Below, piece after piece: positions 3,069 to 44,805 of a DNA stretch of 44,832 nt. The position numbers and the translations under genes are program-made. This stretch comes from a virus: positions 1-44,832 of IMG/VR virus record IMGVR_UViG_3300049732_000169. One strand, 5' to 3'. Below the pieces are notes generated by a model. The model did no database searches, was not told where the DNA came from, and was given only the letters and a program-made list of their open reading frames with translations. Every line of letters begins with the position of its first letter. Within the stretch, counting starts at the first letter, position 1.

Positions 3069-5449
3069 TGTCACGCTACGAACTCATCCGACCGGAACGC
3101 CCGTCGCTTGTGCAGCGATTTATTCGCTCGATCTTCCTGGGGCCGTACAGTTCGAAAGACAAGGAGCTGGCGCGCATCTTCGGGGGTGGGTCAACCGCGA
3201 CGGGGATCTCCGTTACCGAACACACCGCCCTGAACCTCTCGTCAGTGTGGGCGGCCATCAATCTGATTTCCGGGGATGTGGCGACGCTGCCGCTCTGCCT
3301 CTTTCGACGGAAGGACGGCAACGCGGAACGGTACGAGGCGCATCCCTTGTATCGATTACTCCATGACGCCCCGAATCCGGAAACGACCTCGATCACGTTC
3401 CGGCGCACGCTCCAGGCGCACGCGCTGAGTTGGGGGAACGGGTACGCGGAGATTGAGCGCGACCGAGGTGATCGGCCGATCGCACTGTGGCAGATTACGC
3501 CAGACCGCGTGACGGTGGAACGGGAGGCCGGGCAGATTCGGTATCGCGTGACGAATGCGGGGAAACCGGATGTGTCCCTCGCACCGTTTCGCATGTTGCA
3601 CATCCCCGGCATGGGGTACGACGGGTTGCAAGGGTATCCGGTGATTCGCATGGCCCGGGATGCCATCGGGCTCGGCATGGCCGCCGAGCGATTCGGGGCG
3701 AAGTTCTTTGGGAACGGGGCGTCGTTCGGGGGCGTGTTCGAACACCCCAAAACGATGAGCGAGACCGCGCAAGCAAATTTCGAGAAGAAAGTGAACGCGG
3801 GCCATCAGGGTGTGGACCGCGCGCACCGTTTCATCATCGCTGAGGAAGGGATGAAATACGTGCGCCTGGGGATTCCGCCCGATGATGCCCAATTTCTGGA
3901 AACGCGGCAGTTTCAAGTCACGGACATTGCGCGCTGGTTCAACGTGCCCCCGCATAAAATCGGCGACCTCTCGAGGGCGACCTTCTCGAACATTGAGCAG
4001 CAGAACATCGAATATCTGCAGACCACGTTGATTCATTGGCTCGAGACGTGGGAGCAGGAATTGACGATGAAACTGATTTCGCCGCTGGAGCGCAATCAGC
4101 AATTCATCGAGCACGTCACGGAAGGGTTTCTCCGTGGTGATTCGGCGGGCCGGGCGCAACTGCAATCGTCTGAGTTCAACATCGGTGCGGGGACGCCGAA
4201 CGAAATTCGGGCACTGTCGAATCGGAATCCGGTCGCAGGCGGAGACATCGCCTTTGTGCCGCTCAATATGATGCCGCTCAGTAAGGTGGAGGCCTATTGG
4301 GACGCGCAGATCGCGAAGTTGAAGGAACCGTCGCCGGCACCGGCTCCACCGTCATCGACGATGGAGATGGAAGACGAGCCCGACCCCGACATGGAAAGCA
4401 TGCGGGCGCGGCTCGAGCAGTTGGTGGCGGACAACACGGAGAAAGACATCGCCCGGCGGCAGGCCGAACAGCGGGCGGACGATTTGTCAGCGGCGCAAAC
4501 GCAGGCCGAGGCTGAACGCGACGCGGCGCGCGCTGATCACACGCATACGCTGGAACTCCTCGCCGGCGCAGAGACGGCGCTCGCAGCCGAGCAAGCCGAG
4601 CACGCGATCGCTCGAGACAAAGCCGCGAGTGACTCAGCGGCGGCGACGGCTCGTTACGGCGACCTCGAGTCACGATATACGGCGACGTTAGACGACTACG
4701 CTGGCGAGGTTCACCGTGCGGATAATCTGCTCAGGAAACTTAATGCAGCGAATGAGGAATTAGAGCGGGAACGCGCGGAACACGCCGATACACGAGCGAA
4801 CTACATCAAAGACATCGAAGCGGCCGCGGCGAAGACTGCCGATGTGGACCGCCAGCGCGACGCCGAGGTTGCGTTGCGAGTCGAGGCCAAAAACACGCAA
4901 CGGCAAGCCGAAGCCGCACGCGAAGCGGCCATCCAACGCGCCGAAGCCGCCGAGCGCGACAAGGGCATCGCGGAACAGGCGCAGCAGGCCGCGAATCAAC
5001 TCATTGAGGAACGGCGCCAAGTCGAGCGGGCGCGTATGGTGGGCGTAATTGCCGCCCATCGGGCGCTGATCGCCGACGTCATGTCCCGCATGGTGCAGCG
5101 CGAAACCGAGAAGGCGCGGCGCAACCAGGCGACGCCGGAGAAACTCCGGAAGTGGGCGGAGTCGTTCTACAGCCTGCACGAACAGACGTGTGTGGAGGCA
5201 CTCATCCCGGCGGTACGGGCGCATCTCGCCTGGCTGCAGCGGTTCGATGACTCTGAAGCCGTCGCGCGGACGCTGGTGCGAGCACATATTCGGGAATCGG
5301 TGACGCAACTCCGGGCTGTGGCCGATGCGGACCCCGACGAATATCACGGCCTGCTTGAGCGCACCCTCACACGATGGGAAACTGAACGGCCGCACGCGCT
5401 CGCCGATGCCGTGCAGAAAGAGGCGATTTCCTATGTTGCCGGAGACTGA
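3068..5449 (+). CDS. Portal protein (HK97 family) with long coiled-coil extension
   Basis: A 793-residue protein, almost twice the usual 400-430. Residues 1 to about 425 are a standard HK97-type portal: [31 protein letters not shown], the [11 protein letters not shown] stretch and the [10 protein letters not shown] motif before the crown. After a proline-rich linker (about 425-440) comes a charged Ala/Glu/Arg coiled coil to about residue 655, then a separate helical domain of about 135 residues ([22 protein letters not shown] onward). The portal forms the dodecameric vertex through which DNA passes. The coiled-coil and terminal domain could lie inside the prohead as a scaffold-like core. No separate scaffold gene is seen. 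Confidence 0.93.
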
Positions 5450-6020
5450 GCGTCGCATGGCGCGGGCCTATGGGTCCGTCCGGATTGACGTGGATGACCG
5501 GGCGCGTATTCGTGGGCTCGCGATTGTGTTCAATTTGCTGTCGGTGAACCTCGGCGGGTTCCGCGAAATCATCAAGCCGAGCGCCGTGGACCGGACCTTA
5601 AATGAAGGCCTTGACGTGCGGGCGCTCGTCAATCACGACAGTTCGAAGGTGCTCGGGCGGAATACCGCGGGCACCTTGGAGCTTCGCAAGACGCGCCAGG
5701 GCTTACAGGTCGATATTGACCCGCCGAGCACGTCCTACGCGAAAGACATCATGGAATCGCTTCGGCGCGGCGACGTGGACGGTATGTCGTTCGAATTCAG
5801 CACGTTGAGCGATGACTGGCACTTAGAAAAGGGCGAACTCATTCGAGAAGTGACCGACATGCGGATTTCCGAGGTCTCGGTCGTGACCTTTCCCGCGTAT
5901 GAGGCGACCGATGTCACGATTGCGAAGCGGTCGCTCGAGCGGTATCAGGTCGAGTGCGGGTTGACGGTGGCACGGCTGCGGGAGGAACTCCTGGCGAAGC
6001 GGAGTGCGGCGCGGCGATGA
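5433..6020 (+). CDS. Prohead maturation protease (HK97 family, S78)
   Basis: A 195-residue serine protease that digests scaffold domains during head maturation. Key features are GLAIVFN at the N terminus, NHD near residue 67 (catalytic His), LGR, the DGMSFEF segment with the nucleophile Ser near 119, and [15 protein letters not shown], which is characteristic of the family. The start at ATG 5433 is preferred because AAAGAGG lies 9 bases upstream. It overlaps the portal stop by 17 bases. An alternative ATG is at 5457. It probably cleaves the N-terminal delta domain of the capsid protein encoded at 6416. Confidence 0.92.
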
Positions 6021-6223
6021 GCGACCGGCAACGCGGGCGGCCTCGGCTGTTTCGTGAGCCTCCCGTGTCGGTGTCCGTCCGGATCCCGGTGCCGCTGCAT
6101 GATGCCTTGAGTATTGAGGCCGTCCGACGTGGGGTCGACCTGTCCGCGGTCATCCGCGAACGACTCGACCATTTTCGTATCTCAAAAATAGACACCCGCG
6201 ACGGTTCGCGGCACACTACCTAA
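6017..6223 (+). CDS. Small ribbon-helix-helix-like DNA-binding protein
   Basis: A 68-residue protein starting in an ATGA overlap with the protease gene. The central stretch, [15 protein letters not shown] followed by a helix, [12 protein letters not shown], has the beta-strand/helix/turn/helix pattern of CopG/Arc-type ribbon-helix-helix proteins. Such proteins bind DNA as dimers and often repress transcription. Its position between protease and capsid is unusual for a regulator; it might act on the 192-base gap that follows. A role in the head cannot be excluded. Confidence 0.65.
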
Positions 6224-9136: not shown

Positions 9137-9413
9137 TCTCGACCAGGGCGAAGGCGACGCGCCGCCGCTCGTCTACACCCCGTCGCGGATTCGGGTCGCG
9201 ATTCGGCCCGACGCGCCCACGGTCATCGACGAGCATCGCATCTCGGCCATCGTTGAGACGCGGTATCACCCGCAGATTTCGTTCAACACGCGGCTGACGT
9301 TTGTCGATCGGCACAACGTCACCCATCGGTACTACGTGAAGGGCATCCAGAACATCGATCACGAGAGTCGGTATCTCCGCTTGCTTTGTGAGGAAGTGGT
9401 GACGCCGCAATGA
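9123..9413 (+). CDS. Head closure protein (head-tail joining, SPP1 gp16-like)
   Basis: A 96-residue protein with the family pattern: an ETRYHPQISFNTRLTF strand pair, then YYVKGIQNIDHESRYLRLLCEE. Proteins of this type (Phage_H_T_join) form the ring that seals the connector and docks the tail. Size is typical (90-110). The stop overlaps the start of the first glycosyltransferase gene (ATGA), meaning that a sugar-transferring enzyme is translationally coupled to a neck protein. Confidence 0.82.
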   Translation: MVWVDLDQGEGDAPPLVYTPSRIRVAIRPDAPTVIDEHRISAIVETRYHPQISFNTRLTFVDRHNVTHRYYVKGIQNIDHESRYLRLLCEEVVTPQ

Positions 9414-10345
9414 GAGTGCTCCTCGTGCACCCCGGCGATGGGCCAGGGCAACAGGACGTCTATGCGGGCGTTGCGGCAGGGCTCCAGGCGAACGGTGTGG
9501 ACGTGGTGCGTTGTCGACCCGAGATGGCGCTCGACACGGCGGCCACCCATCCGGTGGATGTGATCGTGGTCGTCTCCGCGCGCAGTGTATCGCTCGTCGG
9601 GAAGTTGAAAGGGGTGGGCCGTCCGCTGGCGGCGCTCCTGACTGAGACGCCGTATGAGCACGACCGCGAACTGCAAGTCGCGATGCTGTGCGATCTGAGT
9701 TGGACGAATGAACGCTCGGCGGCCGCGTCGTTTCCGCGCACGAGTTACCTCCCGCACGGCTGGCATCCATTGCGTCATCACACGACGCCGCTCGGCGATG
9801 ACGAGGACGCGCCCGCGCATGACGTGGTCTTTGTCGGGGCGGGCTTCCCCGAACGGTGCGCCTTCTTCAATGCGATCGATTGGAGCGGCATCAACCTGGG
9901 GCTGTATGGCATCTGGCAGGGGTTCGGGCTCTCGCCGGCCTTAGAGGCACGGTGTCACGAGGGCGAGATTGAGAACGCCTATGCGGCGGCGCTCTATCGT
10001 CGCGCCAAGATCGGCCTGAACCTGTACCGGGCGCGCACGTGGGACCGTGTCGCGGTCTCGGCAGAATCCTTGAACCCGCGCGCGTACGAACTCGCGGCCT
10101 GCGGCACCTTCACCATCAGCGAATACCGGTCGGAAGTCGAGGACGTGTTCGGGCGCTTCGTGCCGACGTTCCGCACGCCCCACGAAGCCGAAGCCCTGAT
10201 ACGTCGCTGGCTCGCTGAGGATGAGGGGCGCTTACTCCTCGCGGCCGCGTTGCCGAGTTGCGTAGAACGGGCGTCGTGGGTCGATCGCGCAGGGCAGATG
10301 CTGGTCGGGTTGCGGGCGCTGATTGACCGGACGGTGGCGGCATGA
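9410..10345 (+). CDS. CgeB-like glycosyltransferase, copy 1
   Basis: A 311-residue protein with two halves. The N-terminal half is Rossmann-like (MRVLLVHPGDGPGQQDVYAG, VIVVVSA, LLTETPYEHDRELQ). The C-terminal half contains ESLNPRAYELAACGTFTISEYRSEVEDVFG, the donor-binding signature of the Glyco_trans_1_2 / CgeB (GT-B) family. It should transfer a sugar from an activated donor; acceptor unknown. A clear paralogue lies at 12476. The gene sits between head closure and the gp10-like neck gene with ATGA overlaps on both sides, so it belongs to the late operon and may modify a virion or host-surface component. Confidence 0.85.
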   Translation: MRVLLVHPGDGPGQQDVYAGVAAGLQANGVDVVRCRPEMALDTAATHPVDVIVVVSARSVSLVGKLKGVGRPLAALLTETPYEHDRELQVAMLCDLSWTNERSAAASFPRTSYLPHGWHPLRHHTTPLGDDEDAPAHDVVFVGAGFPERCAFFNAIDWSGINLGLYGIWQGFGLSPALEARCHEGEIENAYAAALYRRAKIGLNLYRARTWDRVAVSAESLNPRAYELAACGTFTISEYRSEVEDVFGRFVPTFRTPHEAEALIRRWLAEDEGRLLLAAALPSCVERASWVDRAGQMLVGLRALIDRTVAA

Positions 10346-10758
10346 GCGCCCACATCCGTTGGGACGGGTTCGATAGCTTCCTGCGGGAGTTTCAGGCGCT
10401 CCCCGAGGCCTTGCGTACGGAAGGCCTGGCGATCGTGCAGGAAGAAACGACCGGCGCGGCCGTGGAGATCACGCAACGCTACGGCCGGAAAACCGGCACG
10501 ATGGCGCGGCGCGTCCGGGTGGAATTTCCGAATTCGAAATTGCTGGTCGGCGCGGTGGTCAGCGCGGCCCCGCATGCCCATCTCTACGAATTCGGGACCG
10601 GGAATCGCCAAACGGCGAAGGGGGCGAATCGTGGCCGGATGCCGGCCGCGGACCCGCCGGTGATCATCCCGATTGCCCGCAAGCGACGGGCACGGATGCG
10701 GCGGCGGTTGGTGGAACTGCTCCGCCGACACGGCTTTGCGATCGGGGACGCCGAATGA
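10342..10758 (+). CDS. Neck / tail completion protein (HK97 gp10-like)
   Basis: A 138-residue protein with IRWDGFDSFLREFQALP at the N terminus and the diagnostic APHAHLYEFGTG...NRGRMPAADPPVIIPIA segment of the HK97 gp10-like family. The C terminus is basic and helical. Members join the head connector to the tail. Here the gene is isolated inside a cassette of sugar-modifying enzymes, with a glycosyltransferase on each side and 4-base overlaps to both. Confidence 0.85.
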   Translation: MSAHIRWDGFDSFLREFQALPEALRTEGLAIVQEETTGAAVEITQRYGRKTGTMARRVRVEFPNSKLLVGAVVSAAPHAHLYEFGTGNRQTAKGANRGRMPAADPPVIIPIARKRRARMRRRLVELLRRHGFAIGDAE

Positions 10759-11321
10759 AGGTGAGTGTCATCTGCGTCTCGGATCGTCCGCAGCGATTGC
10801 CGATTCTCGTTTGGTCGCTCATCGCTCAAACGCATCGGGATTGGGAGCTCTGGATTCTTGATCAGAGTGTGAACGGGTGTGTGGCCTGGCATGTCCGCGA
10901 TCTGAAATCGGACCCGCGCCTGCACGTGCGTCAAGTGCCGCGGGTCGGCGATTGGGGCTACTCGGTGAAGCAAGAGGCGGCGCGTCGGTGGGCGACCGGG
11001 GACGCGTTCATCTTTCCCCAGGATGACGCCTATTACGTGCCGACCGCGCTGGCGGAAATGGTGGCCGCGCTCGAGCGGGACAGCGGCGGGGATCTGGCGC
11101 TCTGTGGCTGGTTGTATGACCTGCTCGGGTTCGCGCCGATGCCGCCGAATCCGCGGGTGGGGCATGTGGATGTCGGCGGGTTCCTCGTGCGCCGGGAGAC
11201 GTTTCTCGCGACGGGCTGGCCCGATAGTAGCCAGACGGCGGACGGCAAGTTTATCGAAGGCGCTGCGCGCAGTGGTGCGCGGGTCGTCGGGTGCCCGGGA
11301 GTCTTGTATGTCCGCTGTTAG
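10755..11321 (+). CDS. Family 2 glycosyltransferase (GT-A fold)
   Basis: A 188-residue protein beginning with MKVSVICVSDRPQRLPILVWSLIAQTHRDWELWILDQS, the standard GT2 N terminus. The metal/nucleotide-binding acidic motif is FPQDDAYY near residue 92, and GHVDVGGFLVRRETF marks the acceptor side. It is shorter than most GT2 enzymes (230-300) because the C-terminal helices are missing, yet the catalytic core looks intact. It probably uses an NDP-sugar. No membrane segment is present, so it should act in the cytoplasm. Confidence 0.85.
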   Translation: MKVSVICVSDRPQRLPILVWSLIAQTHRDWELWILDQSVNGCVAWHVRDLKSDPRLHVRQVPRVGDWGYSVKQEAARRWATGDAFIFPQDDAYYVPTALAEMVAALERDSGGDLALCGWLYDLLGFAPMPPNPRVGHVDVGGFLVRRETFLATGWPDSSQTADGKFIEGAARSGARVVGCPGVLYVRC

Positions 11322-11991
11322 AGACCAGCTGCACATCGTCAACGGGCCCCCGCGGGAGGAGTGGCCGCATCTGGCGCCGCCGGAACTCTCCATCTTGCCG
11401 GCACCGAACGCGGCGGGGCGCGATGACGACGACGTGCGGTACTGGTCGCGCGGCGTCGAGATGGTGCCCATCATCACGGGCGCGGCGCCGGTCATGGACT
11501 GCCGCGATCTGATTGATGCCTGTCAGCGGCTCGGTGTCGCGCTCCCGCTCATGGGGCGCGTGCTGGACATTGGCTGTGGGACTGGGCGGTGGCAACGGTT
11601 CTGTGCGGCGTACATCGGCTTGGATATCAGTCCGTCCGCGGTCGCGTACGCCCACCGGCGCGGACTGACGGCGTACCACATCAAGGGCTACGGGCCTTCG
11701 GCGCTCGACGGTTGGCTCGGCGGCTGTGAGTGGATCTGCTGCTTTTCAGTCTTCACACACATCCCCTTCGAACAGCGACACGACTACCTCGAAGCCTTCC
11801 GACGCGTCGGGGAGCGGTTGCTCGTCGACATCATTCCGGGTGACGGGTCCGGACAGATTGCGCTCTGGACCGCGACGGTCGAGGACTTCGATCACGACCT
11901 CATGGTCACGGGGTGGCGGGTTGATGCTGTGGCGGAACGCGTGTCGCTCGATGGCGTCACTCATCGGTACTACCGGTGTTCGCATCTATGA
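11308..11991 (+). CDS. Class I SAM-dependent methyltransferase
   Basis: A 227-residue protein. The start at ATG 11308 has GGGAG 6 bases upstream and overlaps the GT2 gene by 14 bases. Motif I is VLDIGCGTGRWQRF near residue 83, followed by the acidic YIGLDIS motif and FSVFTHIP, a layout typical of small-molecule or sugar methyltransferases. DNA-methylase motifs (PPY, PPC) are absent. With glycosyltransferases and a cytidylyltransferase around it, methylation of a glycan or its lipid/alcohol part is the simplest guess. Confidence 0.83.
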   Translation: MSAVRDQLHIVNGPPREEWPHLAPPELSILPAPNAAGRDDDDVRYWSRGVEMVPIITGAAPVMDCRDLIDACQRLGVALPLMGRVLDIGCGTGRWQRFCAAYIGLDISPSAVAYAHRRGLTAYHIKGYGPSALDGWLGGCEWICCFSVFTHIPFEQRHDYLEAFRRVGERLLVDIIPGDGSGQIALWTATVEDFDHDLMVTGWRVDAVAERVSLDGVTHRYYRCSHL

Positions 11992-12479
11992 CGATTCAGG
12001 ACCGCTTGCGGGCGCTTGGGCGCGAAGAGCCCTTCGAACGGGCGTATCTCGGGGGGACGTTCGATTGCTTGCACCGCGGTCATCTCGCGCTCTTTGCGGC
12101 GGCGCGGCTCATTGCGCGGGAACTCGTCGTGTCCCTGAACACCGATGATTTTGCGGCCCGTTACAAGCGCCGGCCGTTGATGCCCCTGGCCGACCGGATG
12201 GCGGTGCTCGAATCGTGCCGACTCGTGGACCGCGCCATCGTGAACAGCGGCGACGAGAACAGCCGCGTGGCGATTCTACACAGCGGGGCGGATTGTGTCG
12301 TGCACGGCTCTGACTGGCAGGGCGACTCGTTGCTGCAGCAAATGGGCCTCACGCGCGCGTGGCTCGAGGAACGCCGGATTCAGCTGGTGATTCTGCCGTA
12401 CACCCCGTGGATGAGCACCACGCAGTTGCTTGAATCATACGCGGGGGCATGGGGCTATCTCAGTCGGGCGCTTCGATGA
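11988..12479 (+). CDS. Cytidylyltransferase-like nucleotidyltransferase
   Basis: A 163-residue protein starting in an ATGA overlap. It carries GGTFDCLHRGHLALF near residue 20, which holds the HxGH signature of the cytidylyltransferase superfamily, and the late LPYTPWMSTTQLLES segment comparable to the ISTT motif that contacts the nucleotide phosphates. HGSDWQGD lies between them. Relatives make CDP-glycerol or ADP-heptose-type activated precursors. The substrate here cannot be read from sequence. Next to glycosyltransferases it most likely supplies an activated unit for glycan decoration. Confidence 0.85.
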   Translation: MTIQDRLRALGREEPFERAYLGGTFDCLHRGHLALFAAARLIARELVVSLNTDDFAARYKRRPLMPLADRMAVLESCRLVDRAIVNSGDENSRVAILHSGADCVVHGSDWQGDSLLQQMGLTRAWLEERRIQLVILPYTPWMSTTQLLESYAGAWGYLSRALR

Positions 12480-13606
12480 GTACGAGGCGGCCTCGGTTCC
12501 TGTGCGTCGATCCGGGGGCCTCGTGGTCGACCGCGGATGTGTGGGCGGGCCTGTGCCATGGCCTGCTGCAGCACGGGGTCGAAGTGATTCCCTACTCGCT
12601 GGCGGCGCGCATTGATAACGCGGCGGCGTATCTCAATCACGCGTGGCGCCGACTCGCGAAGCTCGCGAAGCGCGCGGGCAGCGAGGTGCCGCCGAAACCG
12701 ACGCACGCGGAAGTGCAATACAACGCTTCCATCTATGCGCTCGATGCGGCGCTCCGGCATCAGGTCGACGCCGTGCTCATCGTGTCGGCGATGTTCTTTC
12801 ACCCGAACGTGATCCATCTGATGAAGCGCGCCGGGTTGAAGGTGTTCATTCTCTTTACCGAGTCGCCGTACGACATTGAGAAGGAACTGGCCCGGGCGCA
12901 GATTGTTGATGGGTGCTGGACGAACGAACGCTCGTCGGTCAAGACGTTTCGGGCCGTGAACCCCTGTAGCGGCTATGTGCCGCACGCGTGGCATCCCGAC
13001 CGGCATCGACCCGGCCTGCAGCCTGGCGATGAAGAGGTCCCCGCGTACGACGTCGTCTTCGTCGGCTCGGCGTTTCATGAGCGCATCACGTGGTTCGAAT
13101 CCATTGATTGGACCGGCATCTCTCTCGCCCTGTACGGCACGTGGGATGCGCTTGGCTCGCGGAGTAAGTTACGCCAGTACGTGCGAGGCGGCCAGGTCGA
13201 CAACCGTATGGCGGCGGCGTTGTACCGGCGCGCTAAGATTGGGCTCAACCTCTATCGGACCTCCATCGGATGGGGCCGCCGAGCGCCCTCCATTACGCAC
13301 GCTGAATCCTTAAACCCCCGCGCGTATGAACTCGCCGCGTGTGGGGCCTTTTCTCTGAGCGATTTCCGGGCGGAAGTCCCTGAAGTGTTCGGCGACCTCG
13401 TGCCGACCTTCCGGAGTCCGACCGAGGCCGCGGCGCTGATTCGACTATGGCTGGCGAACGATGCCGGCCGGGCGCAGATCGCGGAGGCCCTTCCGGCTTG
13501 TGTAGCCGAGGCATCGTGGGCGCATAGGGCGCAGACGGTGATCGGGGACATTGAAACGCTGCTGCAGTGGGACATCGCGCCCGCGGCCGTAGCAGTCGGA
13601 GGGTAA
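12476..13606 (+). CDS. CgeB-like glycosyltransferase, copy 2
   Basis: A 376-residue paralogue of the 9410 protein. Shared blocks include TESPYDIEKEL, WTNERSSVKTF, YVPHAWHPDRHRP, YDVVFVGSAFHER, LYRRAKIGLNLYR and AESLNPRAYELAACGAFSL. It is longer mainly by an extra segment near residues 45-75 and one near 270. The start at ATG 12476 makes an ATGA overlap with the cytidylyltransferase. It probably transfers a different sugar, or the same sugar to a different acceptor, from copy 1. It ends 4 bases before the tail tube gene, placing the cassette inside the structural operon. Confidence 0.85.
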   Translation: MSTRRPRFLCVDPGASWSTADVWAGLCHGLLQHGVEVIPYSLAARIDNAAAYLNHAWRRLAKLAKRAGSEVPPKPTHAEVQYNASIYALDAALRHQVDAVLIVSAMFFHPNVIHLMKRAGLKVFILFTESPYDIEKELARAQIVDGCWTNERSSVKTFRAVNPCSGYVPHAWHPDRHRPGLQPGDEEVPAYDVVFVGSAFHERITWFESIDWTGISLALYGTWDALGSRSKLRQYVRGGQVDNRMAAALYRRAKIGLNLYRTSIGWGRRAPSITHAESLNPRAYELAACGAFSLSDFRAEVPEVFGDLVPTFRSPTEAAALIRLWLANDAGRAQIAEALPACVAEASWAHRAQTVIGDIETLLQWDIAPAAVAVGG

Positions 13607-13610
13607 CCGT

Positions 13611-14009
13611 ATGTCGCGCTATCACGGCAAGAGTGGCCGCGTGATGCTGAGCACCACCGGCACCGCTGCGGCGGTCACGACCACGATGAGCGGCTGGACG
13701 CTCAATCGGGCGACCGACCGCGCAGAAACGACCTCGTTCGGGGACGCCAACAAAACCTACGTGCAGGGGTTGCCGGATCTCCAGGGCACGATCACCGGCT
13801 TCGTCGATCACGCCGACGATCGGCTGTTCGACGCGTCGGAATCCGCCGATGGGGCCAAGCTCTATCTGTACTTCTCCACCGATGCGCTGGCGATTTACTT
13901 CTACGGGCCGGCGTGGGTCGACGCCTCGATGGAAGTGCCGGTGTCTGGCGCCGTGACCATGAACGGGACGTTTGCGGCTAACGGCAGCTGGGGTCGTAAC
14001 TGGCCCTGA
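13611..14009 (+). CDS. Probable major tail tube protein
   Basis: A 132-residue protein with a regular beta-rich pattern: SGWTLNRATDRAETTSFGD, NKTYVQGLPDLQGTITGF, then YFYGPAWVDASMEVPVSGAVTMNGTFAANGSW. This order is common in small siphophage tail tube proteins, and the slot just before the chaperone and tape measure genes is the expected one. It is at the short end of the size range. An unrelated virion protein is less likely. Confidence 0.75.
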   Translation: MSRYHGKSGRVMLSTTGTAAAVTTTMSGWTLNRATDRAETTSFGDANKTYVQGLPDLQGTITGFVDHADDRLFDASESADGAKLYLYFSTDALAIYFYGPAWVDASMEVPVSGAVTMNGTFAANGSWGRNWP

Positions 14010-22449: not shown

Positions 22450-23529
22450 CTATGCGCGCTTCTGTTTACGGGTGGGAGCAGAAACAGGAACCATAGGCCA
22501 GCCGTTGAAACGCCCGTCGAGCGCTTCGCCGAGCCGCTGGAGACGGCTATTCAGGACCGGGACGTACACGCGACGCGTGATGCGCGGGTCTCTGTGGCCG
22601 GCCCCGACCGCGATGTCTTCCAAGTCTATGCCCTGCTCGCTCGCGTGCATCCATGTGGTGTGCCGTGCCTGGTAGGGTCGGACCTTTTCTGGCCAGCCGG
22701 CTGAGCGGAGCGTCCGCGCAAAGTTGCCCGTGCTGTACGTGCCCCAGGCGTGCTCGGCGATGAACAGCTGCCACGCGGCGAGCATGTCGTCGTTCAAGTA
22801 GACGCCGGGGCAAAAGCCGCCCTTGGCATCGCGTGGCACCCACACACGGGCCTCCAGATTCACATCGCCCGACTGCGCCCGCATGATTTCGCACGGCCGT
22901 TTCCCGGTGGACACGAATACCCTGTACCGGGCGCGCGTCTTCCCGTTCCACGGGGGGCCGGTGCGCTTCGCCTCCATTTCCTGCAGCCGGCGATCGACGG
23001 CGAGTATCAGTTCGTTGCTGATGCGCTGAATCGGCGTCTTCGGCACGGTCAAGGGTTCAATGCCATCGCACGGGGTCTTCGCCTGCGGACCGTCCAGGGT
23101 GCGGTACAGATGGCGAAGCGTATTGACCCGGTGGTTGATGGTCTTCGGCGCGAGCGGTTTGCGCTGGGAGAGCCATCGCACGCGGGCGGCAAGCACGTGG
23201 GCGCTCGTCACCCGGTGCCGGTACACATCGCCGAGTTCCTGAATCCACGCGTTTAGGTGATCTTCGCGGTCCTCCCAGCTCGCCAGATGCCGCATCAGTT
23301 TGATGTACCGCTTGGCGGCGGCGGCAAGCGAGCCACGCTCGACGGGCGGCGATTCCGTGCGGCCCATGGCCTCGAGCGCGGCGCGTTTCCCCTTGAGTTC
23401 GTCCAGGGTGGAGTCCTTCGGCATCCGTGCGGAATAGGGCACGCCGCCGACCATCACGCGGACTTCAAAGCCGCCGCTGTCGAGGTACACCCCGCGGGCG
23501 ATCGTGCGGCGTTTGCCAGTGCGGGGCAC
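22450..23529 (-). CDS. int: Tyrosine recombinase / phage integrase
   Basis: A 359-residue site-specific recombinase. Residues 1-60 resemble an arm-binding/Arm-DNA-type N terminus, about 65-155 are the core-binding SAM-like domain, and 165-345 the catalytic domain. Catalytic positions visible are Arg211 in STGKRPCEI, Arg289 in RPYQARHT, His312 in GAGHRD and the nucleophile Tyr322 in ITRRVYVPV. The usual first His of the H-x-x-R box is Tyr here, a tolerated change in this family. It lies beside a tRNA-like attP core and should integrate and excise the phage. Confidence 0.95.
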   Translation of the reverse strand: MPRTGKRRTIARGVYLDSGGFEVRVMVGGVPYSARMPKDSTLDELKGKRAALEAMGRTESPPVERGSLAAAAKRYIKLMRHLASWEDREDHLNAWIQELGDVYRHRVTSAHVLAARVRWLSQRKPLAPKTINHRVNTLRHLYRTLDGPQAKTPCDGIEPLTVPKTPIQRISNELILAVDRRLQEMEAKRTGPPWNGKTRARYRVFVSTGKRPCEIMRAQSGDVNLEARVWVPRDAKGGFCPGVYLNDDMLAAWQLFIAEHAWGTYSTGNFARTLRSAGWPEKVRPYQARHTTWMHASEQGIDLEDIAVGAGHRDPRITRRVYVPVLNSRLQRLGEALDGRFNGWPMVPVSAPTRKQKRA

Positions 23530-34382: not shown

Positions 34383-35279
34383 GTGGCTGATAACGTCGAA
34401 CTCGTCGGCGCGTCCGGCAACTTCTTTGGCGCGTCTGTTGAGGCGCCGTTCTCTGGCGACACGGTCAAATTGCTGCTCCTCGCCCGGTCAGATTATGCCG
34501 GGGCCGAAGGCGCACGTACCCTCATTGAGCTCCACGACAAGTATTCCCGCTCGGACACGTTTACCGGGACGGGGAACGGGACGACCGTCGACGTCTCCGG
34601 GCAGGCGTTGTCAGGATTCGGCATCCAGGTCAAAGGCACTGGGGCGCCGGCGGCGGCGTGGAATGTGGTGCTCGAGGGCAGTCTCGATAACACGAATTTC
34701 ACCACGATCGCCACACACAGCAATCTGACCGACAGCGACGGCAAGGCGAAGCCTGGCGGCGGCGCGCCCTGGCTCTATTTTCGCTCGCGCTGTGTCTCGC
34801 TCACGCTGGGGAGCGCGACGAATATCGTCGTCACCATCCTGGGCGTCCCGAGCGCGTCTGCGCGGACAGTCAGCCTCATTGAAACAGATGGCACGGACAC
34901 CGCGCTGAAGGCGTGGCTCGATGCCATGGGGGACTGCTCATTTCATCATGTCGTCACCGCGGCCTCCAAAAATCCCGTCGTCATCAAGGCCTCGTCCGCC
35001 CGGCTGCGCTCAGTACACGGCTTCAACAATGCGGGGTATCCGGTCAAGGTGTGCTTTCACAACAGCGCGAGTTCGCCCACGGCGGGGTCGGGCGTCGTCG
35101 CGTCGTTTGTCTGTCAGTCGGGGCGCGAACTGGCGGTGCGGTTGCCAGGGAAGGGGCAGCAATTTACCACCGGCTTAGCCATGACGATCGTGGCGGTGCT
35201 CGCGGCCACCGATATGGCTGATACGGGCGCCACAGATACCGTGCTGAACGATGCAGCGTTTGAGGTGGGGTATGTGTAA
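34383..35279 (+). CDS. Virion-like beta-rich protein
   Basis: A 298-residue protein from GTG 34383 with only a weak ribosome site. The sequence is dominated by strands and small polar residues (NGTTVDVSGQALSGFGIQVK, AAAWNVVLEGSLDNTNFTTI, RLRSVHGFNNAGYPVKVCFH). AWNVVLEGSLDNTNFT resembles a galactose-binding/discoidin-like strand pattern often found in phage fibres. First gene of the second virion block. Its 3' end overlaps the next gene by 8 bases. Confidence 0.6.
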   Translation: MADNVELVGASGNFFGASVEAPFSGDTVKLLLLARSDYAGAEGARTLIELHDKYSRSDTFTGTGNGTTVDVSGQALSGFGIQVKGTGAPAAAWNVVLEGSLDNTNFTTIATHSNLTDSDGKAKPGGGAPWLYFRSRCVSLTLGSATNIVVTILGVPSASARTVSLIETDGTDTALKAWLDAMGDCSFHHVVTAASKNPVVIKASSARLRSVHGFNNAGYPVKVCFHNSASSPTAGSGVVASFVCQSGRELAVRLPGKGQQFTTGLAMTIVAVLAATDMADTGATDTVLNDAAFEVGYV

Positions 35280-35742
35280 CCGTCGCGTTGTGCTCGGGCT
35301 CGTCTTCGCCGCGGTCGCGGCGCTCGCGCTCGAGGCCCAGCAGCCAGTCAACGTCACGAAAGTCAACAATGCGGCGCCGGTCGCGGTCGGCGCCGACCCC
35401 TATTCGTTCCTGTCCACCGCCGCGGTGCAGGCTGCGCAGATTCACGGCTCGAGCGGCTGGGTCTGGCACATCGTCTGTTTCAACCGCGGGACCGCGGAAG
35501 TCTTTCTCCGCTTGTACGACCAGACCGGGGCGCCGGGCACGGGTGATACCGCCAACATCAAACTGCGCGCGTTCATTCCCGGCGATGCGAACGCGGCGGG
35601 TTTTGTCGTGCCGCTCCCAAACGCCGCCCTCTTTAACATCGGCATCGGCATTCGTGTAACCGGCGCGGTCGCCGACAACGACAACACCGCGCTCGCGGCA
35701 AACGAGGTCACGTGCAACGTCGGCTATCAGGACAAGCCGTGA
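35272..35742 (+). CDS. Exported beta-rich protein, signal peptide 1
   Basis: A 156-residue protein whose N terminus, MCNRRVVLGLVFAAVAALAL, is a basic-hydrophobic Sec signal followed by EAQQ, with cleavage plausible after ALEA. The mature part (VWHIVCFNRGTAEVFLRLYD, AGFVVPLPNAALFNIGIGIR, TCNVGYQDKP) is close in style to the C-terminal part of the 34383 protein, so both may share a fold. Signal peptides are not expected on ordinary virion proteins. GTGA overlap with the next gene. Confidence 0.6.
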   Translation: MCNRRVVLGLVFAAVAALALEAQQPVNVTKVNNAAPVAVGADPYSFLSTAAVQAAQIHGSSGWVWHIVCFNRGTAEVFLRLYDQTGAPGTGDTANIKLRAFIPGDANAAGFVVPLPNAALFNIGIGIRVTGAVADNDNTALAANEVTCNVGYQDKP

Positions 35743-37022
35743 CCCGCGTCCTGATCCGGCTTCTCGTCGCGCTGGCGTGCGCGCTCCCGCTGTCAGCGGA
35801 GGCCGCCGTCACGATTACGCAGACGAGCGGCAGCGACAAGACCGGCGATAACACGATCGCGTTCGGAGGCAACACGACCACCGGCAATACCGTCGTCGTG
35901 GTTATTCGGTACGGGTCGGGCACTCATGCGGCGTTCAGTATCTCTGATGCGACGAACGGGACGTACGCGATCACTGGCAATCACGACAACTGGGCGACGA
36001 TCTTTCACTTTCGCAACATTACGGGCGGGTGGACGACAGTCTCGATCGATGCCCCAGCTAGTGACACCGGATACTATGTGCAGATCTACGAACTGAGCGG
36101 GGCGAGCGCCTCGCTCAGCATCGTGACCGACATCGCCGTCAATGCGTCTGGCACCGTTCATCAGTGTGCCGATAGCGGCGGCTTATCGGGGACGGGGTTT
36201 GCGGCCTGTGTCGGTACGTACGGAGCGGTCGCGAGCAGCACCACGCCTGGTTCCGGGTGGACACTGCGCGGGAGCGGCACGGGCGGCGTCGTGCAAGATA
36301 AGATCGCCACGTTCACCAACGAACTCGGGCCGTTCACGACGGGCTCGTCGGTCGATAGCGTGACCGTCTTTGCGCTGTTTCCTGAGGAGGGTGGAGCGCC
36401 CGCCTGCACGGGCACCTTCTGTGACGCCTTCACGCGCGCGGACAATACCGACCTGGGCGCGAGCTGGGATAGCGGGTACACCGCGAAGAACAATCTCCAG
36501 ATCGTCAGCAATCGGATCCGCGGCACCGCGCTCGGCACCGCCTCGGTCGAATCGACGTCCACCTCCATCACGAACGACCAGCGCGGCGAGGTCACGCTGG
36601 CCTCATGGGTGACCTCTACATTTGGTGTCGCGGTGGTGTCGTTGCGGATGACCGCCCCAGCGACACAGACCGCGTACACCTGCACGGTCCTCGCGAACGC
36701 GGCAGACCATACCCGCATCACCGAAATCACCGCCGGGAGCGAAGTCACGCTCGCGAATGAAACGACCTCGACATGGTCGGCGGGACACATCCTCCGCTGT
36801 GAGGTCATCGGCTCCACCATCAATCTGTATCAGGTGATTGGCGGGTCAGCCAACCTGCTCCTCACGACGACGGACGGCAGTCTTACGAGTGGGCGCGTCG
36901 GCCTCGCGACCTTCGTGGACTCAGGCGGCTCGCTCGCGAATATCGAACTGGATGATTTTGTCGCCACAGATATTTCGTCTACGGGCGCGGCGCGTGGACT
37001 TGTGTTGGGGGTTGGGCAATGA
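35739..37022 (+). CDS. Exported two-domain beta protein, signal peptide 2
   Basis: A 427-residue protein from GTG 35739. The signal peptide is VTRVLIRLLVALACALPLSA with AEA before the probable cleavage site. Residues about 30-210 form one beta domain (GNTVVVVIRYGSGTHAAFSI...), similar in style to the 40808 protein. Residues about 225-420 look like a concanavalin/LamG-type jelly roll (FTRADNTDLGASWDSGY ... GRVGLATFVDSGGSLANIEL, DDFVATD), which often binds or hydrolyses glycans. No catalytic residues can be assigned. Confidence 0.65.
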   Translation: MTRVLIRLLVALACALPLSAEAAVTITQTSGSDKTGDNTIAFGGNTTTGNTVVVVIRYGSGTHAAFSISDATNGTYAITGNHDNWATIFHFRNITGGWTTVSIDAPASDTGYYVQIYELSGASASLSIVTDIAVNASGTVHQCADSGGLSGTGFAACVGTYGAVASSTTPGSGWTLRGSGTGGVVQDKIATFTNELGPFTTGSSVDSVTVFALFPEEGGAPACTGTFCDAFTRADNTDLGASWDSGYTAKNNLQIVSNRIRGTALGTASVESTSTSITNDQRGEVTLASWVTSTFGVAVVSLRMTAPATQTAYTCTVLANAADHTRITEITAGSEVTLANETTSTWSAGHILRCEVIGSTINLYQVIGGSANLLLTTTDGSLTSGRVGLATFVDSGGSLANIELDDFVATDISSTGAARGLVLGVGQ

Positions 37023-38665
37023 CGCACAGGACGCACATACGGAGAGGCATCGCGGCGCTGCTCTTGATCGCCGCACCATCGGTGGCGTCGGCGGCCACCT
37101 ATCACGTCGCCAAGAGTGCCCAAGGCGGGAACAACGGCAATTCGTGTACAGCCGCGCAGAATGTGAACACCCCAAAGCTCACCATTGCCGCAGGGATCGC
37201 GTGTCTGGCGAATGGCGGCAACGACACGCTCTTCGTCCGCGCGGGCACCTACGACGAAAACATCAGTTCCGTGCCGTCTGGCGCCTCGGCGGGGAGCCGG
37301 AACCGGATCGCGAACTACAACGGGGAGGTCGTCTGGATCAAGCCGACGACGCCGTTCTTTTCTGGCGTGATCTTCTTAGAGACCGCCACTTACCTTGAGT
37401 TCGATGGGATCAACGTCGACAACACAAATGTGGCGAACATTCCCGGATCATGCTACGCGATCTGGTTTTCCTCAAACAATGGCACTGATCCCCATCACAT
37501 TCGGTTCAAAAATGCCGAGGTCAATTCGGGCTTTTGCGGCGGCGCGTCCATCGGGCTTGGTAGTCACAACCCCGCTTCAGCTACGACGGGCGCATTTGAA
37601 TTGCAAAACCTCGTGATTCATGGTGGGGGCGCGACAGGCGGTTGCGGGTTCCAGTGTACCTCCTATGCGGTCTACGTCATGACGAAGGACAGCATTATCG
37701 AGGGCTTGGACGTCTATAACACCTCGGGGGCGGCGATCCAGATTTACAACACGGGTGGCGACTCCCCCGACAATAACATCATCCGCAACAGTCGCTTCCA
37801 CGACATCACGCGATCGGGCTACACGAGCGGCCAAGGGACCGCGTTACTTCTCGACGGCGGCATCGGTAATCAGGTTTACAACAATGTGATCTATGGGATC
37901 GACCTACCTGGCAATCAGACGACGCACGTCGGGATCGTCGTTGTCGGTGGTTCGAACTACCTGATCGCGAACAATACGATCGCGAACAACGTGGACGTCG
38001 GCGGCATTCGGGTTGAGGCTGGGGCCTCGAACACCATCGTGCGGAACAACATTGTTGTCAATAACGGGACGCCGATGTGGGAGGACTTCGGCCAGAACAC
38101 GTCGAAATCGAACAATCTCGGATCCACCCCCGCGACCGGCTGGATTACCGGCGACCCCAGTTTCGTGAATGCCGCCGCGCGCGATTATCACCTTCAGGCC
38201 GATAGCGACGCGATTGATGCAGGAGCCACCGTCGCACAGGTCGCATCGGACTTCGACGGGCTCGCGCGGCCGCAGAACAGTATCTATGACATCGGCGCGT
38301 ATGAGTATCCCGCGACGCCCGCGGTGCTCGCGCCCACGGTGACGATCTTGACGCCCACGAGCGCCGAGACCTTTACGACGACGCAGGCTGAACTCTCGGA
38401 GCCCGCTGACCGCGTGACGGGATCGGCCGTTGATGACATCAGTGTTGCGAGTTGTAGCTGGGTCAATACCGCGACTGGCCACTCTGGGGCCACGGTCGGC
38501 ACAACGGCGTGGTCGATTCCTATACTGCCCCTCGCGACTGGCGTGAATCCGGTCACGGTGACGTGCCTCGATGGGGCCGGCAACATGGGCAGCGACACGC
38601 TCACGATCACCTCGACGGGGACGCCCGTGCAGTCGTATCGGTTGAGGATTCGGAGCGCCCAATGA
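37019..38665 (+). CDS. Exported parallel beta-helix protein (tailspike/pectate-lyase-like)
   Basis: A 548-residue protein. Signal: MTHRTHIRRGIAALLLIAAP with ASA before cleavage. Residues about 40-430 show right-handed beta-helix rungs (NDTLFVRAGTYDENI, NNIIRNSRFHDI, NQVYNNVIYGI, NYLIANNTIANN, NTIVRNNIVVNN), with the closing DYHLQADSDAIDAGA...DFDGLARP..YDIGAYEY typical of polysaccharide lyase-like proteins. Residues 435-540 are an Ig-like domain. Function is probably glycan binding or cleavage. It may be a tailspike or a prophage-encoded secreted enzyme. Confidence 0.75.
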   Translation: MTHRTHIRRGIAALLLIAAPSVASAATYHVAKSAQGGNNGNSCTAAQNVNTPKLTIAAGIACLANGGNDTLFVRAGTYDENISSVPSGASAGSRNRIANYNGEVVWIKPTTPFFSGVIFLETATYLEFDGINVDNTNVANIPGSCYAIWFSSNNGTDPHHIRFKNAEVNSGFCGGASIGLGSHNPASATTGAFELQNLVIHGGGATGGCGFQCTSYAVYVMTKDSIIEGLDVYNTSGAAIQIYNTGGDSPDNNIIRNSRFHDITRSGYTSGQGTALLLDGGIGNQVYNNVIYGIDLPGNQTTHVGIVVVGGSNYLIANNTIANNVDVGGIRVEAGASNTIVRNNIVVNNGTPMWEDFGQNTSKSNNLGSTPATGWITGDPSFVNAAARDYHLQADSDAIDAGATVAQVASDFDGLARPQNSIYDIGAYEYPATPAVLAPTVTILTPTSAETFTTTQAELSEPADRVTGSAVDDISVASCSWVNTATGHSGATVGTTAWSIPILPLATGVNPVTVTCLDGAGNMGSDTLTITSTGTPVQSYRLRIRSAQ

Positions 38666-44409: not shown

Positions 44410-44805
44410 ATGCCAACCGCTTCCCTGCGCTACTGCTTAGAACCGGGGTGCTCTACCAAGGTGAAGAGAGGACGCTGTCCACAGCACACCCCTGCACAGG
44501 GATGGAATGCACGCAGGCCATATGCCCCTGAGCGCATCCGTGGTACCACCCTCCAGCGTCTAAGAGAGGAACTCTTTAGGCGTGAGCCCTTGTGTAGGGC
44601 CTGTCTACAGGCTGGACGCACACGGGCTGCAGTCATACGTGATCACATCATCCCCTTAGGTGAAGGCGGAACCGAGGATGACTCGAACGTCCAACCGTTA
44701 TGTCAGGCGTGTTCTGATGCGAAAACACACGAGGAATCGCAACGGGGCAGGTCGCGGCAGGGCACAACCCATGCCAACGCGGTACGGCAGGGGGTAGGCC
44801 GGTGA
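44410..44805 (+). CDS. HNH endonuclease, second copy
   Basis: A 131-residue protein of the type commonly encoded beside terminases: CRAC, VIRDHIIPLGEGGTEDDSN, LCQACSDAKT, the classic Cys-framed HNH motif (first His in DHI, Asn in DSN, K-T at the end). The N terminus (RYCLEPGCSTKVKRGRCPQH) adds a small zinc site. If the genome is circular it lies about 60 bases before the first HNH gene and close to the terminase genes, where HNH proteins assist cos cleavage. The last 27 bases of the window carry no gene. Confidence 0.88.
   Translation: MPTASLRYCLEPGCSTKVKRGRCPQHTPAQGWNARRPYAPERIRGTTLQRLREELFRREPLCRACLQAGRTRAAVIRDHIIPLGEGGTEDDSNVQPLCQACSDAKTHEESQRGRSRQGTTHANAVRQGVGR

Follow-up and report, generated by a model that had tools for sequence, protein, structure and literature searches.

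A glycosyltransferase gene fixed beside the tail-tube gene, with a variable slot of companion enzymes, in an uncultivated lineage of tailed phages

To our knowledge, glycosylation of tailed-phage virions has been demonstrated only in a few mycobacteriophages. As two reports describe it, phage-encoded glycosyltransferases act there on capsid and tail-tube subunits, and the virion glycans are located at the C termini of these subunits (PMC11256854, PMC12619734). Here we analyse a putative glycosylation cassette in the IMG/VR virus record IMGVR_UViG_3300049732_000169, whose whole 44.8 kb are called the window below. Its + strand encodes an operon that runs from terminase through portal, protease, capsid and neck to tail genes. 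In this operon the head-closure gene is followed by CgeB1, a gp10-like gene, a GT2-type glycosyltransferase, a methyltransferase, a cytidylyltransferase-like protein and CgeB2, in this order, with the gene for the major tail protein (MTP) directly downstream (Table 1). On the evidence of gene order and a predicted structure, CgeB2 probably glycosylates the phage's own tail-tube subunit, and the enzymes encoded in the slot upstream of it would elaborate the glycan.

The association of CgeB2 with the tail-tube gene holds across all sets of relatives. A CgeB2 scan of viral contigs gave 92 relatives, 80 of which were kept; the MTP was the next gene in 77/77 contigs with room for it, and the remaining three end before that point. 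When the tail-tube alignment alone was the query, 80 loci were kept, 65 of them new (22 on contigs already seen and 43 on new contigs), and CgeB stood upstream of the MTP in 65/65, at a distance of at most 400 bp in 63. A third scan with divergent MTP queries, which shares some contigs with the earlier ones, placed CgeB upstream in all 68 loci with room, within 400 bp in 66. Gaps above 400 bp occur at just two loci per MTP set, and one such gap, on contig L118, has an HNH-like reverse-strand open reading frame (ORF; 5346-6026, -) between CgeB and the tail-tube gene. No MTP of the CgeB2 lineage without CgeB appeared in the three scans, and for this reason a reading of CgeB2 as cargo, or moron, was rejected. 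CgeB2 is no insertion special to the window phage but belongs to the core genes of an uncultivated lineage. The initial annotation had tied the cassette to the neck; its stable partner is instead the tail-tube protein, and the other enzymes are variable cargo.

A CgeB-less comparison was provided by a distant tail-tube clade reached through Roseobacter phage CRP-406 (28% identity). CgeB was found at 0/40 loci of this CRP-406-type clade, a few of which begin near the tube gene. The gpU and tube genes are adjacent in CRP-406, and the clade keeps this uninterrupted gpU-MTP order. Among CgeB-linked loci, a distant scan with the CgeB of L161 as query gave one locus, and a distant Chloroflexi-binned contig has the order terminator-like, methyltransferase-like, CgeB, MTP, with 32% CgeB identity.

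By sequence identity, the tail module is best conserved in CgeB2 and MTP, whichever of the two was used to find the loci. In the CgeB2-found set, median identity to the window reached 61% (CgeB2), 57% (capsid protein) and 55% (MTP); head closure, gp10 and the two genes that follow MTP stayed at 34-36%. The MTP-found set gave 58% and 57% for CgeB2 and MTP versus 34-38% for their neighbours, so ascertainment does not explain the pattern. Major capsid proteins (MCPs) of two architectures and lengths occur among the long relatives, and the CgeB2-MTP pair is unchanged. The CgeB2-MTP distance correlation (0.52; of 28 gene pairs, only one ranks higher) is only suggestive of coevolution.

Family, fold and motif are consistent with a catalytic role. 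Both CgeB proteins belong to PF13524 (67.4 bits for CgeB1 and 77.4 bits for CgeB2, with a cut-off of 25) and are paralogues with 50% identity over aligned columns, or 43% by BLAST; CgeB1 lacks about 45 helical residues that CgeB2 has at ~50-95. A structural search, which the initial annotation had proposed for both paralogues against GT-B families, was run against the PDB with the CgeB2 model (mean predicted local distance difference test score, pLDDT, 93) and returned the GT4-type GT-B enzymes BshA, MshA and PimA as the nearest solved folds (Z 24-27). The match to BshA (Z 26.6, root-mean-square deviation 3.0 over 321 residues) covers the two-Rossmann GT-B fold. A sequence search of the PDB with CgeB2 gave no match, and these relatives were found by fold search only. 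The GT4 EX7E motif is present in both paralogues as ESLNPRAYE, and the strict pattern is kept in 131/149 CgeB relatives. By modelled fold and EX7E motif, CgeB2 is a GT4-like GT-B enzyme, for which sugar transfer is predicted. Against 50,697 phage records, tblastn with CgeB1 and CgeB2 found no match, and a CgeB relative gave a partial match only (E 0.3). CgeB1, which also occurs in the closest relative (L005, 94% identity) and there too directly before gp10, probably has a substrate other than that of CgeB2, perhaps a different protein of the virion.

The stretch that separates CgeB2 from the gp10/terminator gene forms an interchangeable slot. Both of its borders are present in 72 non-redundant loci, of which 27 hold a GT2, 24 a methyltransferase, 11 a radical S-adenosylmethionine (SAM) enzyme and one a nucleotidyltransferase; 17 hold unassigned genes. 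These contents were assigned by profiles, with which Pfam scans of samples agree while adding SPASM, B12-binding and TylF domains. The slot is empty in seven of the 72 loci, which makes CgeB2 alone the minimal unit. Companion enzymes can also be joined to the core gene: L053, L055 and L066 have a CgeB2 fused with a GT2, the fusion partner in L080 is a methyltransferase, and methyltransferase matches lie within the CgeB frames of L118 and L211. A fragment like a sugar aminotransferase (judged by eye), a further kind of slot enzyme, is found directly upstream of CgeB in L160 (2-670).

The nucleotidyltransferase occurs in the slot of the window and of contig L002 only, and scans with it and with the window GT2 found few relatives within the CgeB2 phage lineage. 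Adjacent counterparts of the GT2 and nucleotidyltransferase, with 50% and 71% identity, are present in the unrelated contig L094 (651-1719), and more distant adjacent pairs occur in unrelated phages, some beside a terminase gene. The pair was also seen at L083 7986-8940 and L091 3076-4039. Because the pair recurs in unrelated phages, the two sequences look like a mobile two-gene unit. The nearest solved relative of the cytidylyltransferase-like protein is TagD (1coz, E 8e-14). The models for glycerol-3-phosphate cytidylyltransferase (TIGR01518) and the HldE adenylyltransferase domain (TIGR02199) gave 60.2 and 64.2 bits, far under their curated cut-offs of 165.4 and 181.5, and both TagD and HldE were rejected as names on these scores. 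The 'glycerol-phosphate-like' group and the 'methylated glycan' of the initial annotation therefore stay guesses.

The MTP model (pLDDT 88) matches the tail tubes of monocin (MttP), R4C, lambda (gpV) and SPP1, and both these structure matches and PHROG 10528 place the protein in a tail-tube family. Ser78, in a loop after a helix, is found in 88/88 CgeB-linked MTP sequences and in 0/27 CgeB-less ones, and is the only Ser/Thr present in all of the former and none of the latter. Many positions separate the two clades and the distant L161 aligns no Ser at position 78, so Ser78 is only a lead, a candidate glycan acceptor suggested by the alignment.

Taken together, CgeB2 would be a dedicated glycosyltransferase that acts late in infection and, with a host nucleotide-sugar as donor, places the first sugar on the tail-tube subunit. 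The upstream slot enzymes would then extend or modify this sugar; in the window phage, the cytidylyltransferase may make an activated donor, the GT2 may add the donor group and the methyltransferase may cap the product. We infer in this way the enzyme activity, acceptor, sugar, linkage and order of steps, as well as a benefit such as masking or protecting the tail. Several observations weigh against this scheme. Adjacency does not prove a substrate, as phage operons keep their gene order for many reasons, and the CgeB-head-closure distance correlation (0.50) nearly equals that of CgeB2 and MTP. The MTP has no extended C-terminal tail, the reported glycan site in mycobacteriophages, and the missing Ser in L161 counts on the same side. 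The first Glu of EX7E is lost in some divergent CgeB members. T4 DNA alpha-glucosyltransferase also matches the CgeB2 model (Z 21.7), which means that the GT-B fold alone does not name the acceptor.

The enzymes might instead glycosylate another virion protein of the neck, capsid, tape measure or fibre, with CgeB2 kept beside the MTP gene through the stability of the late operon. The near-equal head-closure correlation fits this unlikely but credible alternative, as do the position of CgeB1 between the head-closure and gp10 genes and the larger glycosyltransferase islands that some relatives have near collagen-like genes upstream of the neck. On contigs L203 and L204 (relatives G001 and G004), glycosyltransferase-rich islands and collagen-like Gly-X-Y proteins were observed between the portal and neck genes. 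Against it, the CgeB2-MTP pair stays intact while the MCP has two architectures and the other neighbours are at ~35% identity, and the lineage yielded no MTP without CgeB.

We regard it as rather improbable that CgeB2 serves the assembly or structure of the tail as a GT-fold protein that has lost sugar transfer. Conservation at the level of a structural gene and the altered first Glu in some divergent members speak for such a role, and a non-catalytic role is possible for some of these divergent members. Retention of EX7E in most of the family and the recurrent partnership or fusion with GT2, methyltransferase and radical SAM enzymes point to chemistry.

Phage glycosyltransferases are well known to bring about lysogenic conversion, and the cassette might modify the host surface in lysogeny or late infection, so as to convert the serotype or exclude superinfection. 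Such conversion is less likely than a virion target, but the tyrosine recombinase encoded in the window makes it possible; we give host-surface modification a slightly smaller chance than the assembly role. ATGA coupling places the genes within the late operon, the cassette has no flippase or membrane-embedded glycosyltransferase, and an integrase was found in 9/24 long relatives, many of these records being fragments, versus CgeB in 24/24. The initial annotation had favoured a virion target over the host surface. The locking of CgeB2 to the tail-tube gene, the late structural operon and the lack of membrane-embedded proteins strengthen that view; as the recombinase makes lysogeny possible, lifestyle does not speak against a conversion role. 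DNA glycosylation occurs in other phages and the T4 enzyme resembles the CgeB2 model, yet modification of phage DNA by CgeB2 is very unlikely given its location in the tail module and the lack of any thymidylate-synthase/hydroxymethylase family member (PF00303) in 24 long contigs, many of them incomplete (9/14 controls were detected). A Tet/JBP search gave no match, but its controls were silent too, and it carries no weight either way.

A stronger version of tail-tube glycosylation is that the lineage builds its tail tubes obligatorily of glycosylated subunits, that CgeB2 and MTP are an inseparable enzyme-substrate pair, and that one-slot cassette swaps diversify the glycan. We put this forward tentatively, as conceivable and still rather doubtful. 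If true, tail-glycan cassettes of GT2, methyltransferase, radical SAM and nucleotidyltransferase genes are swapped much as bacteria vary their surface sugars.

Table 1. Cassette genes of the window and the adjoining tail-tube gene
Gene	Coordinates	Strand	Domain or family match
CgeB1, paralogue of CgeB2 (CgeB/Glyco_trans_1_2 glycosyltransferase) that lacks the helical insert	9410-10345	+	PF13524, E 1.6e-18
HK97-gp10-like tail completion/Neck1 gene	10342-10758	+	PHROG 5 'tail completion or Neck1', E 4e-14
GT2-type glycosyltransferase, slot enzyme	10755-11321	+	PF00535, E 9.7e-10
SAM-dependent methyltransferase, slot enzyme	11308-11991	+	PF13649, E 4.7e-8
Cytidylyltransferase-like nucleotidyltransferase, slot enzyme	11988-12479 (ORF opens 11976)	+	PF01467, E 1.1e-16
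CgeB2, core GT-B glycosyltransferase (predicted) beside the tail-tube gene	12476-13606 (ORF opens 12449)	+	PF13524, E 1.4e-21
Major tail (tube) protein, MTP; predicted CgeB2 acceptor	13611-14009	+	PHROG 10528, E 6.8e-11

Domain matches bear out the initial annotation of five enzyme genes flanking an HK97-gp10-like gene in the order given, and the same complete set is repeated on the independent 5.4-kb contig L002 (99-100% identity where measured). The gp10-like protein scored 20.0 bits with Pfam HK97-gp10_like, slightly below the 21.4 cut-off. Joining by ATGA stop/start overlaps was also noted initially. Of the six junctions that lead from the head-closure gene to CgeB2, five have such an overlap (at 9410, 10342, 10755, 11988 and 12476), a count that assumes the nucleotidyltransferase start at 11988 and the CgeB2 start at 12476; the GT2/methyltransferase junction is a 14-base overlap with no ATGA. 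The overlaps at 11988 and 12476 mark the likely starts of these two genes. Cassette G+C content (GC, 0.64-0.67) and its value at third codon positions (GC3, 0.77-0.80) are the same as in the surrounding phage. The maximum 19-residue hydropathy window among the cassette proteins is 1.51, so none looks membrane-embedded. In most relatives a gp17-type tail terminator gene follows gp10; no homologue of it was detectable anywhere in the window. An HNH-like gene at the right end (44410-44805) and a small terminase gene at the left end (557-1126) suggest that the window is a circularly permuted, nearly complete genome. Three consecutive proteins of the putative tail-fibre region (35251-38665) open with signal-peptide-like segments, and the last of them has a choice-of-anchor Q domain.

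CgeB2 relatives form a little-known uncultivated group, mostly soil viruses of bacteria. The tyrosine recombinase gene of the window (22453-23529, -) belongs to the phage integrase family, with matches in nine of the 24 long records, and the window phage may accordingly be temperate. A genome scan for relatives found two short contigs from metagenome-assembled genomes, binned as Propionibacteriaceae and Chloroflexi, and surveys of ~400 genomes per phylum added one further strong MTP match. It lies on a phage-like contig of 13.5 kb from the Chloroflexi set, where CgeB precedes the tube gene. The bins to which short phage contigs are assigned are not a reliable guide to the host.

In a widespread phage lineage, one tail-tube family thus appears to be obligatorily accompanied by a glycosyltransferase. 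The natural cassette series, including CgeB2-only minimal forms and fusions, suits testing, and two neighbouring genes make the question of why a phage glycosylates its tail a testable one.

The slot nucleotidyltransferase shares the HxGH nucleotidyltransferase fold family with TagD and the HldE C-terminal domain, while scoring far under their curated cut-offs. Phage gtr serotype-conversion clusters likewise consist of phage-borne glycosyltransferases, whereas here soluble enzymes lie in a late structural operon. The CgeB/YkvP-type domain PF13524, its fold and EX7E are shared with the GT4-like enzymes BshA, MshA and PimA; CgeB2 has 10-16% sequence identity to the solved GT4-like members and differs in its new partner and its helical N-terminal insert. 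Phage-encoded glycosyltransferases are common to this locus and the mycobacteriophages, with a tail-tube target that is here only predicted from genes. The present locus differs in that CgeB2 is fixed beside a tail-tube gene whose product has no long tail, and CgeB1 and CgeB2 found no homologues among phage isolates in the 50,697-record collection. Virion glycosylation itself is known from mycobacteriophages; the new element is a glycosyltransferase gene fixed to a tail-tube gene, with a variable slot beside it, in a lineage unmatched in that collection.

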